Shown piece after piece: positions 2,112-24,874 of a stretch of DNA of 42,702 nucleotides. The notes under the pieces were generated by a model. The model searched no databases, had not been told where the DNA came from, and saw only the letters and a program-made list of their open reading frames with translations. The stretch comes from Betaproteobacteria bacterium (GTDB taxonomy: Bacteria > Pseudomonadota > Gammaproteobacteria > Burkholderiales > Methylophilaceae). The stretch covers positions 1 through 42,702 of the forward strand of contig VGIC01000016.1 in assembly GCA_016867975.1 (NCBI GenBank), read 5' to 3'. The first letter of the stretch is position 1, and each line of letters opens with the position of its first letter. The translations under genes were made by a program, and so were the position numbers.

Positions 2112-2145
2112 TGGCGTCCCCACGGGGATTCGAACCCCGGTCGCC
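2112..2145 (-). other. Putative island attachment site (attL/attR half) in the tRNA-Glu 3' end
   Basis: The T-arm and acceptor 3' strand of tRNA-Glu are the expected integration target, because the integrase gene begins just beyond it and the tRNA remains intact. The matching direct repeat at the other end of the island is not in this window, so the core cannot be delimited. This is an inference from gene arrangement. Confidence 0.45.
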
Positions 2146-2187
2146 TCCGTGAAAGGGAGGTGTCCTAGGCCTCTAGACGATGGGGAC
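2112..2187 (-). tRNA. tRNA-Glu (anticodon UUC)
   Basis: The minus strand folds into a full cloverleaf: acceptor GTCCCCA, D-arm with CTAGAGGCCTAGG, anticodon arm CCTCC-CTTTCAC-GGAGG with TTC at the anticodon, T-arm with GGTTCGAATCC, discriminator G and encoded CCA (2112-2114). It is nearly identical in layout to enterobacterial tRNA-Glu. It lies downstream of tRNA-Ala on the same strand and is probably cotranscribed with it. Its 3' end is the likely attachment site of the integrase-bearing island. Confidence 0.97.
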
Positions 2188-2267
2188 CTAAGAATTATTA
2201 CCGAACTGCAAGTGCGACATTCTACTACATGTCGTTAAACATTTCTAAGAGAAATATTAACTTTTAT

Positions 2268-2343
<76 letters not shown>

Positions 2344-21814: not shown

Positions 21815-23002
21815 CTATTTATTCAACAAGGCTAAGTCTGCTTTCAAATCCTCAATATGTTCCAAACCAACAGCGATACGCACTAGTCCATCTGTAACAC
21901 CTGCTATTGCACGCGCGTCTGGCGTTACACGACTGTGCGTCGTGGTAGCAGGGTGTGTAATGGTGCTTTTCGCATCCCCTAGGTTTGCTGTGATGGAAAT
22001 TAATTTAGTCGCATCAATCAATGCCCAAGCGGCCTCTTGTGGCGCTTGCCCTGCCTTGGTCTTGACCTCAAAAGTCACAATACCGCCACCACTGACCTGT
22101 TGGCGCAATGCCAAAGCATGCTGTGGGTGCGAAGGCAAGCCAGGATAGTAGACGCGCGTCACTTGGGGTTGTGTTTCTAACCACGTGGCAAGCGCCAGTG
22201 CATTTTTAGCGTGCGCTTCCATGCGAATATGAAGTGTTTCCAGTCCTTTCAGAAACACCCATGCATTAAATGCACTCATGGTGACCCCAGCAGTACGTAA
22301 GAAACCGTAAACTGGCTCCATCAATGCTTTTGATCCCAACACAGCACCACCCAAGCACCGCCCCTGTCCATCGATGTATTTTGTGGCAGAATGAATCACA
22401 ATATCAGCGCCTAACGCCAATGGCTGCTGGATTGCTGGTGTACAAAAACAGTTATCAACCACCAAATGTGCACCTGCTTTGTGGGCAATATCTGCCAGCA
22501 GGCGAATATCACAGATCTCGGTCAGTGGATTTGATGGCGTTTCCACAAAAAATAGCTTAGTTTTAGGCGTAACGGCAGTCTGCCATTCATCAGCATTCGT
22601 CAATGAAACGAACGTCACATCCAAGCCCCAACGCTTGAGAATATTGCCGAACAACTGCACGCTAGTACCAAAAATACTGCGTGAAGCAACCACATGATCC
22701 CCGGCCGAGCATAAACCCATGACGCATGCCAAAATCGCAGACATGCCGCTGGAGGTTGCCACGCACTGCTCAGCGCCTTCAAGCGCCGCTAATTTGTTTT
22801 GAAACATGGTCACTGTAGGGTTGGTAAAGCGTGAGTAAATGTTGCCTGCCTCCGTGCCACCAAAGCGTGCTGCAGCTTGTGCTGCGCTATTAAACCTGAA
22901 GCTTGAGTTTAAAAACAGTGCTTCAGAGTTCTCGCCAAATTCAGTAGATTCGCTCCCTGCACGTACGCTTAGAGTTTCTGGATGGTATTGTTGTGTTGTC
23001 AT
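21815..23002 (-). CDS. metZ: O-succinylhomoserine sulfhydrylase
   Basis: A 395-aa Cys/Met-metabolism PLP enzyme that makes homocysteine directly from an O-acyl homoserine and sulfide. The N-terminus QYHPETLSVRAGSE, the SRFTNPTV segment, the PLP Lys208 in HSATKYIDGQGRCLGGAV, and the C-terminal DAKSTITHPATTTHSR region fit the MetZ subgroup, as does its position next to purF, conserved in Pseudomonas and betaproteobacteria. The ~260-nt leader holds a promoter, a SAM-II-like riboswitch and an intrinsic terminator, so it is probably repressed by S-adenosylmethionine. A sister enzyme (MetY or MetB) would be a close alternative; context favours MetZ. Confidence 0.93.
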   Translation of the reverse strand: MTTQQYHPETLSVRAGSESTEFGENSEALFLNSSFRFNSAAQAAARFGGTEAGNIYSRFTNPTVTMFQNKLAALEGAEQCVATSSGMSAILACVMGLCSAGDHVVASRSIFGTSVQLFGNILKRWGLDVTFVSLTNADEWQTAVTPKTKLFFVETPSNPLTEICDIRLLADIAHKAGAHLVVDNCFCTPAIQQPLALGADIVIHSATKYIDGQGRCLGGAVLGSKALMEPVYGFLRTAGVTMSAFNAWVFLKGLETLHIRMEAHAKNALALATWLETQPQVTRVYYPGLPSHPQHALALRQQVSGGGIVTFEVKTKAGQAPQEAAWALIDATKLISITANLGDAKSTITHPATTTHSRVTPDARAIAGVTDGLVRIAVGLEHIEDLKADLALLNK

Positions 23003-23140: not shown

Positions 23141-23177
23141 ATAAAAAACCCGTTAAGGCTTTTCGCCAAAACGGGTT
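23141..23177 (-). terminator. Intrinsic terminator in the metZ leader (expression platform)
   Basis: On the minus strand, AACCCGTT (23177-23170) pairs with AACGGGTT (23154-23147), with an inner GGC/GCC pair in the loop, followed by T6. It lies 13 nt downstream of the SAM-II-like aptamer. A GCGGG stretch in the aptamer (23218-23214) could pair with CCCGU of the 5' arm, giving a possible antiterminator. Confidence 0.85.
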
Positions 23178-23187
23178 CTTTCTTTTA

Positions 23188-23266
23188 CTCGCTTTAGCTG
23201 TATTTCTAACGCGCCCGCAAGCTGAGTGATGCCTCGATTGAATGTAGCAACCTCAAATCAGCGCAG
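23188..23266 (-). ncRNA. SAM-II-like riboswitch upstream of metZ (variant with inserted stem)
   Basis: On the minus strand the RNA reads UGCGC (P1 5' strand, 23265-23261), UGAUUU (L1 start), a ~31-nt insertion, GCUUGCGG (23222-23215), GCGCG (P1 3' strand, 23214-23210), UUAGAAAUACA, then GCUAAA (23198-23193). These blocks are in the same order as in SAM-II (metA/metX/metZ) elements: P1, UGAUUU, UUGC, P1', GUUAAAnAA-like, GCUAAA. The pseudoknot is supported by GC of UUGC with GC of GCUAAA and by CUC (23226-23224) with GAG (23190-23188). It is followed by an intrinsic terminator and metZ, a methionine gene. The match was made from memory of the family, without a covariance-model search. Confidence 0.75.
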
Positions 23267-23270
23267 CTTT

Positions 23271-23299
23271 ATGTTAGCCCTAAGCTTACTGTTAGTCAA
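23271..23299 (-). promoter_or_regulatory. Sigma70-type promoter of metZ
   Basis: TTGACT (23299-23294), a 17-bp spacer and TAACAT (23276-23271) on the minus strand. The predicted start near 23264 coincides with the first paired bases of the riboswitch P1, which strengthens both calls. Confidence 0.7.
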
Positions 23300-23332: not shown

Positions 23333-24874
23333 CTACGCGCCGACCTCATCCGTCTCGCCCGTATTAATCAGATTCAAATCCAACTGTGTACTTGAGTTGC
23401 CGGGTTTCTGGCTCCTTTTTGCATCGCCACGTGTGGACTCTATCTTCGTCATATAGACCTCATCAATATCGCCCGTCACATATTTTCCATCAAAACATGA
23501 ACAATCAAAATCTTTGATTTTAGGGTTTCTGAATTTTACATCTTTAATTAAAGCATCCAAATCTTGATAAATCAAAGCATCTGCGCCAATTTCCTTGCAG
23601 ATTTCATCATCGGTACGACCTGTCGCAAGCAATTCTTCACGGCTTGGCATATCAATGCCATATACATTCGGAAAACGCACTGGTGGCGCGGCAGAAGCAA
23701 AATAGACCTTATTGGCACCGGCATCGCGCGCCATTTGTACAATTTGTTGAGAGGTTGTTCCGCGCACGATTGAATCATCTACAAGCAAGACGTTCTTGCC
23801 TTTGAATTCAATACCGATCGGATTCAGCTTTTGACGAACTGACTTTGTACGTAAAGCCTGTCCCGGCATAATGAATGTGCGACCGATATAACGATTCTTA
23901 ATAAATCCCTCACGATAATCAAGACCTAAATCTATCGCCAGTTGCAATGCACTCGGTCGACTGGTGTCAGGGATCGGAATCACGACATCAATCTGCTTAT
24001 CAGCCCATTCTCGTCGAATCTTGTCTGCCAAGCTTTTACCCATGTCTAATCTCGTCTGATAAACAGACACCCCATCGATCACTGAATCCGGTCTAGCCAA
24101 ATAGACATACTCGAAAATACATGAGTTTAGTTTCGCCACATCTGAACATTGCCGCGAATGGAAATTACCCTCTAAATCGATAAAGATTGCCTCGCCTGGC
24201 TCTACATCACGAAGCATCTCGAAGCCCAACACATCCAAGGCAACACTTTCGGATGCCACGATATACTCAACCCCTTTTTCGGTGTTAGCCTTACCAATGA
24301 CCAATGGACGTATGCCATTAGGATCACGGAATGCCAGCAAGCCAAAATTCGCAATCATCGCCACAACAGCGTAGGCTCCCTTACAGCGCCTATGTACGCT
24401 ACTCACCGCATCAAACACCATATCGGTATTTAACACGGCATTGCGAGATGTTTTTTCAATTTCATGCGCCAGCACATTCAGCAACACCTCTGAATCTGAA
24501 CTGGTATTGACATGACGCAAATCCTGACGAAACATCTCCAGTTTAAGCTGATCAGAGTTGGTTAGATTGCCGTTATGCCCTAATACAATGCCAAAAGGTG
24601 AATTCACGTAAAATGGTTGGGCCTCAGCAGCATTTGAAGAGCCTGCCGTGGGGTAACGTACATGAGCAATGCCCGCATGGCCAATCAGACTGCGCATATG
24701 GCGTGTTTGGAATACATCTTTGACCAAGCCGTTATTTTTATGCATGAAAAACGTATTGCCATCGCAAGTAACGATGCCAGCAGCATCCTGACCTCGATGC
24801 TGCAACACCAGCAATCCATCATAAAGCAATTGATTAACCGGGTTTTTACCTACGATACCGATGATTCCGCACAT
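23333..24874 (-). CDS. purF: Amidophosphoribosyltransferase
   Basis: PurF catalyses the first committed step of purine synthesis: PRPP plus glutamine to 5-phosphoribosylamine. The 513-aa protein begins MCGIIGIVG, so Cys2 becomes the N-terminal nucleophile of the glutaminase domain ([27 protein letters not shown]). The phosphoribosyltransferase domain carries the PRPP loop [14 protein letters not shown] at about residue 362-375. It lacks an N-terminal propeptide, as in E. coli. It lies downstream of cvpA by 72 bp, the classic cvpA-purF arrangement. Confidence 0.98.

Follow-up and report, generated by a model that had tools for sequence, protein, structure and literature searches.

The leader of metZ in the window, by which we mean the whole stretch of DNA that was analysed (42,702 nucleotides), contains an element on the minus strand (23299-23188, between purF and metZ) that we read as a riboswitch of the SAM-II class attenuating the transcription of metZ. 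Judging from the sequence comparisons presented here, we put the probability of this reading at roughly 0.86. Its form is the enlarged-loop SAM-II of betaproteobacteria, probably the same element as the metXZ RNA of 2014. The anatomy of the element, its homology with SAM-II, the conservation of both of its pairings and the use of the same bases by these two pairings are directly established. The features of the locus, in the direction of transcription, are:

23333-24874, minus strand: purF, the upstream neighbour (TIGR01134, 532 bits, cut-off 350)
23271-23299, minus strand: promoter of the sigma-70 type, TTGACT-17-TAACAT (promoter scan, comparison of leaders)
23188-23266, minus strand: SAM-II type aptamer with P1, enlarged loop and P2 pseudoknot (leader profiles; Rfam SAM_alpha at 23177-23274, 19.7 bits)
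23260-23265, minus strand: P1 5' strand UGCGCU, pairing with the 3' strand at 23215-23210, its six pairs kept in 103 to 129 of 129 betaproteobacterial rows
23255-23260, minus strand: UGAUUU, which would provide the third strand lining the SAM site, by analogy with the available text of the SAM-V crystal paper (PMC6061858)
23227-23252, minus strand: variable loop segment of 26 nt, which can form a weak hairpin closed by GAG/CUC (leader comparison, folding)
23217-23226, minus strand: CUCAGCUUGC, P2 pseudoknot 5' strand (complementarity with 23198-23188)
23188-23198, minus strand: GCUAAAGCGAG, P2 pseudoknot 3' strand, the first nine bases of which are also the antiterminator 5' strand (complementarity)
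23143-23178, minus strand: intrinsic terminator with U tract (folding, -16.9 to -19.0 kcal/mol depending on the stretch folded)
23165-23173, minus strand: CGUUUUGGC, within the terminator 5' arm, forming nine pairs with GCUAAAGCG as antiterminator (complementarity, leader comparison)
21815-23002, minus strand: metZ, O-succinylhomoserine sulfhydrylase, the regulated gene (NCBIfam NF006003, 691 bits, cut-off 522; Pfam PF01053)

P1 reads in full UGCGC(U)/(G)GCGCG, with UGCGC (23265-23261) opposite GCGCG (23214-23210) and U-G as the outer pair. Within and after it follow UGAUUU, CUCAGCUUGC, an A-rich linker and GCUAAAGCGAG, and the element ends at 23188. An earlier sequence-only reading had listed P1, UGAUUU, GCUUGC (23222-23217), UUAGAAAUA (23209-23201) and GCUAAA (23198-23193) in SAM-II order, and every one of these pieces lies on the minus strand where that reading had put it. 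This also applies to the promoter it had proposed (TTGACT at 23299-23294, a spacer of 17 nt, TAACAT at 23276-23271), which was picked up by a promoter scan with 9 of 12 bases; the scan reported two sites in the region, one per strand, against 0.6 expected from shuffles. Transcription is predicted to start at the first bases of the P1 stem. A promoter of the form TTGACN-17/18-TANNNT ending 5-7 nt 5' of P1 is present in 51 of 71 metZ leaders, and 19 of the 20 remaining leaders carry by eye TTGACA and a weaker second box; in the leader L090 no promoter was seen by eye within the stretch inspected. The downstream gene had been taken for metZ, and NF006003 identifies its product as O-succinylhomoserine sulfhydrylase; its start at 23002 leaves a gap of 185 nt to the 3' end of the element. 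Its eight best matches (90-91% identity) bear Methylotenera titles, except one named "Betaproteobacteria bacterium", a Methylophilaceae-like picture that bears out the betaproteobacterial methylotroph suggested earlier as the probable host.

Applied to the whole window at the gathering threshold, Rfam returned two tRNAs and nothing else (two tRNA genes in tandem at 2115-2343, minus strand). As only these two pass, the element would have been discarded had the standard Rfam search been the sole criterion. When 351 nt were searched permissively with E up to 10, six weak matches appeared, among which RF00521 (SAM_alpha) was the sole riboswitch, with 19.7 bits (E 0.028 for the 351-nt search) against a gathering score of 36; the alignment has to accommodate a loop of 36 bases in the window compared to 13 in the model. 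The Rfam SAM-II covariance score, which had been suggested as a check of the SAM-II assignment, therefore stayed under its cut-off. RF01726 and SAM-V (which we take to be RF01826) were absent among the six matches up to E 10, a search in which filters may drop weak ones. Applied to 41 relatives at E up to 10, RF00521 was too noisy to be of use, since it matched 41 of 41 and also 13 of 14 controls; above the cut-off it found one of the 41. Twenty loci from this search of relatives were judged by eye, and L001, L006, L007, L018 and L019 were retained.

As the Rfam score was below the threshold, homologues of metZ were collected. The relatives studied are the best 80 of 565 confirmed homologues, whose titles mostly name Methylophilaceae, Methylophilales or their genera, and in some cases only "proteobacterium". 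A profile HMM trained on 61 leaders of relatives, with the window left out, scores the element of the window at 70.2 bits (E 4.4e-21), while the next best site in the window reaches E 1.1. A chance origin of the element is refuted by this window-free model, and the element is very probably a divergent SAM-II member that the standard RNA library misses. The host genome carries one copy, as found with the covariance model R1 described below.

A strict motif occurs in 71 of 81 metZ leaders (window included), and the HMM without the window finds the element at 73 of the 80 metZ loci of relatives, counting a decayed copy in L032 (22 bits) and a truncated one in L057. Three leaders missed by the strict motif (L049, L057, L072) offer 144, 125 and 2 bases of upstream sequence, of which L057 retains the 3' half; in L071 the element is slightly differently spelled and reaches 86.5 bits with a model that does not contain L071. 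The decayed copy before metZ in L032 (2758-2821) reads GCUUAA for GCUAAA and has a broken P1; no TTGAC box was seen, and its terminator persists by eye. Before metZ of five of the 80 relatives (L035, L045, L046, L047, L078) no element was found. By eye metZ follows closely behind the end of purF in the last four of these, where the intergenic region is gone; from this sequence arrangement we regard the riboswitch as lost there, and metZ may be expressed as part of the purF transcript.

The relation to accepted SAM-II loci was followed in both directions. Covariance model R1 was built from 62 distinct leaders of the metZ set only, window included, and its E-values rest on a shortened calibration. 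At E 0.01 it recognises 179 of 300 genomes of the order, spread over 88 of 135 genera, a wide sample of evenly drawn genomes rather than all of them, from which the better-scoring sites were fetched. We take this order to be the Burkholderiales of GTDB. Out of 200 genomes of the phylum R1 matched 12, one being the window's own; in eight of the 11 others the match overlaps an RF00521 match on the same strand, which exceeds the Rfam cut-off in three of the eight (G369, G476, G073). R1 alone matched in G117, G055 and G031, and at a second site in G339. RF00521 matched 35 of the 200 phylum genomes, 31 above the cut-off. Of these 35 genomes, R1 at E 0.01 left 27 unmatched, so that only eight have both.

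When R1 was applied to 20 RF00521 loci outside the class, it picked out the RF00521 site in every one of the 20, with low scores (15 to 31 bits, E from 1e-5 to 0.07 for 61.6 kb); these loci were chosen for an RF00521 score over the cut-off, several are near-identical, and they presumably come from Alphaproteobacteria. Conversely, among 20 loci of the order, picked from about 70 fetched, RF00521 matches 16 at E 0.05 or better and eight above its cut-off, the copy of the window being one of the four it misses. Since both models share sites and intermediates above the cut-off exist within the order, the series from the window to accepted SAM-II loci is continuous at the level of sequence. Together with the element in the metZ leaders of relatives, this continuity with outside loci that pass the Rfam cut-off supports the SAM-II-type assignment of the sequence-only reading.

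The gene context has the features of SAM-II as well, namely genes of methionine or SAM biosynthesis downstream, a promoter before P1 and a terminator after P2. Behind 80 fetched betaproteobacterial elements we found metZ (40), metX (10), metH (6), metK (3), short open reading frames starting MYDC/MFDC (11), unassigned genes (7) and no open reading frame (3), where the groups were formed by BLAST, and Pfam or NCBIfam supplied the name of a single metX, a single metH and a single metK. The 20 outside loci are followed by 10 metZ-like genes, five of the metX group and five of a group whose scanned member is homoserine O-succinyltransferase (metA). The metH cases (methionine synthase) are L117, L122, L139, L140, L153 and L168 and the metK cases (SAM synthetase) L121, L132 and L136, both from some families of the order; L121 also carries a SAH riboswitch further downstream (RF01057, 61 bits).

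Tandem arrangements were observed at several loci from other members of the order. R1 matches lie 88-168 nt apart, start to start, in L164, L165, L166, L169 and L177, with a terminator after the first copy (three by script, two by eye); tandem SAM-II-like aptamers also occur in L102 and L106 and, by eye, in L147, L150 and L018. The second copy lies near an unannotated open reading frame of about 110 codons starting MYDC/MFDC in the first five of these loci, in L147 and L150 and, by eye, in L018. Pfam gave no match for the three such proteins scanned and NCBIfam none for the two scanned, and metX, metZ, metH and metK were not found within these tandem loci. L019 holds two SAM-II-like elements about 1 kb apart (482-548 and 1509-1574), each followed by a very similar stretch.

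For the base-pair counts, 129 of 134 distinct betaproteobacterial rows could be parsed (five could not), and the outside loci contributed 11 distinct rows (from 16 of 20). For the P1 3' strand the offset that maximises pairing was chosen, and it is identical in 131 of 140 rows. All 129 betaproteobacterial rows have C-G, U-G or U-A as the innermost P1 pair, and the outermost is U-A, U-G, C-G or A-U and paired in 103 of 129. In the 11 outside rows, both partners differ at two inner P1 pairs (C-G to G-C, C-G to U-A). These raw counts suggest that P1 is supported by compensatory changes in the wider set. In P2 with 23198-23188, eight of nine pairs are invariant in 62 sequences and the ninth is broken in one of the 62, where the motif that collected the rows already required most of the P2 bases. 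Within close relatives no covariation was found, since the element as a whole, P2 included, is nearly invariant, and the sequence set was therefore widened; for the two outer P2a pairs compared to the outside loci, covariation was still no better than shuffles (p 0.11 and 0.45). The comparative check proposed by the sequence-only reading is thus borne out in part: the metZ leaders of relatives contain the same element and P1 shows compensatory changes, while the P2 pseudoknot shows no covariation.

The ligand-site nucleotides GAUUU, UUGC and GCUAAA are conserved both in the leaders of the window's set and in the loci outside the class, and their role in contacting SAM is suggested by analogy with SAM-V (PMC6061858, available text). 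In the SAM-V structure the ligand is contacted by one U and one A of this stretch, and a U-A-U triple lies next to the sulfonium; all these bases are retained in the window, if that structure may be mapped onto this RNA. Our pair counts place the UU of UUGC opposite the final two A residues of GCUAAA. The SAM-V structure, as given in the text available (PMC6061858), would put the UU opposite the first two A and reserve a U and the last A for the ligand; since these bases never vary, the choice of register leaves the P2 counts unchanged. The variable loop segment ranges from 10 to 32 nt across 71 leaders. Its hairpin in the window is no better than shuffles (p 0.36). We considered the GAG/CUC hairpin as a third state competing with P2a, which is plausible; we do not claim it because only 17 of 49 distinct loops beat shuffles at p 0.1, and the loop of the window is not among these.

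A further hint towards the mechanism comes from the terminator (23178-23143) directly 3' of the element, which, like the antiterminator, is absent from the sequence-only reading and was not listed by the simple scan that picked up the promoter. GCUAAAGCG is the ligand-site strand, a member of P2 and at the same time the 5' strand of the antiterminator. P2 and the antiterminator share this strand and the antiterminator and terminator share the other one, so that the three structures are mutually exclusive. Across the 70 alignable leaders (of 71), the nine antiterminator pairs are each formed in 65 to 70. Out of seven terminator pairs counted at the same arm, three form in 51, 44 and 40 of 70 and four in 57 to 68; in five of the 70 aligned rows the terminator arm is one base shorter. 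The weaker conservation of the three pairs is due to drifting partners in the 3' arm, where the entropy reaches 1.75 bits compared to at most 1.0 in the 5' arm, at whose variable position A and G predominate, either of which can pair with U. By these sequence counts the antiterminator complement is conserved beyond the needs of the terminator. An alternative antiterminator from the P1-strand GCGGG and CCCG was dropped by eye, since many relatives carry GCGAG there.

A script found a terminator in 73 of 77 Methylophilaceae leaders and in 54 of 73 other leaders, leaving 19 of the latter without one; the 73 others include second tandem copies, one repeat and L032. Compared to 200 mononucleotide-shuffled arms, the duplex between tail and arm is significant (p<0.05) in 72 of 73 Methylophilaceae leaders and in 29 of the 54 others with a terminator, and no better than shuffles in the remaining 25, all counts from related and hence not independent sequences. 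Of the outside-class loci, 15 leaders have a terminator, one has none that we found and four of the 20 gave no row; the antiterminator reaches p<0.02 in four of the 15 (three alike) and 0.07 or more in 11.

These observations suggest a sequence of events. RNA polymerase would initiate at P1 and make the aptamer first. Without SAM, the nascent GCUAAAGCG would pair with CGUUUUGGC once this is made and capture the 5' arm of the terminator, which would allow read-through into metZ. With SAM present, GCUAAAGCG would be sequestered in the ligand-bound P2 pseudoknot; the terminator would then fold and metZ, and with it homocysteine synthesis, would be off. That SAM should free the terminator follows from the ability of CGUUUUGGC to pair with the ligand-site strand, a pairing that is kept while the terminator partners drift. 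When the RNA of the window was folded at every third length, the antiterminator was the lowest state for lengths of 102 to 114 nt, and the terminator took over at 117 nt and beyond; folded alone they reach -11.4 and -16.9 kcal/mol. Since the terminator wins at equilibrium, the switch would have to be kinetic according to the folding model. We infer SAM as the ligand, and equally the direction of action and the kinetic control.

The main competitor is a true SAM-II aptamer that acts mainly on translation or RNA stability, with a terminator that is constitutive or serves purF, or with the terminated leader as a small RNA. SAM-II leaders of Sinorhizobium meliloti yield small RNAs and dual control, among them the metZ small RNA RZ (PMC9373788, available text), and every folded length from 117 nt prefers the terminator. 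However, the promoter separates the terminator from purF, conservation of the antiterminator complement exceeds what the terminator requires, and in the window the start codon of metZ lies 140 nt past the terminator and far from the aptamer; we therefore consider this explanation unlikely. A good deal less probable still is a separate class that shares the SAM-II motifs and binds another ligand, e.g. methionine, homocysteine or SAH. This would fit the accessible text of Leyn 2014 (PMC4239095), where Rfam profiles gave SAM_alpha only in Rhizobiales and Rhodobacterales and metXZ was called new, and also the score of the window under the SAM_alpha cut-off. Against it stand the reciprocal matching of the same sites by R1 and RF00521, the intermediates above the RF00521 cut-off in eight of 20 loci within the order, and the shared core nucleotides, among them the U and A residues that contact SAM in the structure of SAM-V (PMC6061858, available text).

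An error of strand also has to be weighed, in which the functional RNA would be a small RNA of the plus strand. RF02424 (Bp2_287, "Burkholderia sRNA") matches the window at 23157-23226 on the plus strand, opposite the element, with 19.5 bits and E 0.022, as low an E as that of SAM_alpha. Across 60 genomes of the order RF02424 gave eight matches (L101-L108), in seven genomes at E 0.001 and none above its cut-off, and all eight lie opposite an R1 match; two of these eight R1 sites score poorly (E 0.0007 and 0.008), and they lie before metZ and metH. Among the 20 loci of the order, five RF02424 matches lie opposite five RF00521 matches. As metZ or metH is on the R1 strand in the four cases checked (L101 as L128, L105 as L130, L107, L108), and promoter, terminator U tract and metZ are all on the minus strand, a plus-strand RNA is hardly credible. 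The lowest probability of all goes to a decayed or chance motif without function: the decayed copy in L032 and the five relatives that lack the element would agree with it, but the copy of the window retains the invariant bases, the promoter and the terminator. The reading as a SAM-II riboswitch attenuating metZ is the one we retain.

With respect to known systems, SAM-II (the metA motif) dates from 2005, when its description included a promoter immediately upstream of P1 and, for many members, a terminator downstream of P2 (Corbino 2005, PMC1273637, available text). The element resembles SAM-II RF00521 of that source in P1, UGAUUU, UUGC, GCUAAA, the pseudoknot, the promoter before P1 and the methionine genes downstream. 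It differs from RF00521 in the loop (36 compared to 13 bases), in the P1 sequence GCGC instead of GUGG and in a P2 extended by CUC/GAG. An enlarged-loop variant, SAM-II long loops RF01726, is already on record (Weinberg 2010, PMC2864571); according to the text available it comprises Bacteroidetes and marine sequences, and it is not among the Rfam matches of the window up to E 10. SAM-II in betaproteobacteria is not new, since the accessible texts of Barrick and Breaker 2007 (PMC2258182) and Meyer 2009 (PMC2704228) place it there, the former mostly with terminators and the latter as commonest in Alpha-, Beta- and Gammaproteobacteria. In the open-licence papers searched, we found none on SAM-II in Methylophilaceae and none that equates metXZ with SAM-II.

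The metXZ RNA of betaproteobacteria was published as "novel" with no ligand given in the text available (Leyn 2014, PMC4239095). According to this text it agrees with our element in genes and taxa (three Methylophilales before metZ), in the pseudoknot, in a downstream terminator and in a suggested antiterminator. It differs in that region 3 was described as partnerless and the terminators as not conserved in sequence. Our equation covers the genes, taxa, pseudoknot and terminator of the published text (PMC4239095), and we conclude that metXZ is probably SAM-II. RF02424 covers the same element in the eight tested matches, modelled on the opposite strand, and is probably a SAM-II riboswitch modelled on the wrong strand, as the overlapping matches suggest. 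The metZ leader of S. meliloti is alike in having SAM-II before metZ and a terminator predicted upon SAM binding, and its terminated RNA rises under high SAM; unlike the window it is alphaproteobacterial (PMC9373788, available text).

If true, the assignment gives the published orphan metXZ a ligand and a mechanism, having been left without either. It extends SAM-II with a strong model through the sampled genomes and genera of the order, and it indicates a gap in the main RNA library, namely the RF00521 cut-off together with the probable strand error of RF02424. For riboswitch specialists this would be a tidy unification rather than a surprise, as betaproteobacterial SAM-II was noted in 2007 and 2009. 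Taken together, we consider it rather probable that SAM-II, the orphan metXZ and the wrong-strand Rfam "sRNA" Bp2_287 are one RNA. It would be the clade's usual SAM sensor for homocysteine synthesis, with metH or metK under its control in some families, and its ligand-site strand GCUAAAGCG would also be the antiterminator strand, so that ligand and terminator would compete for the same bases.
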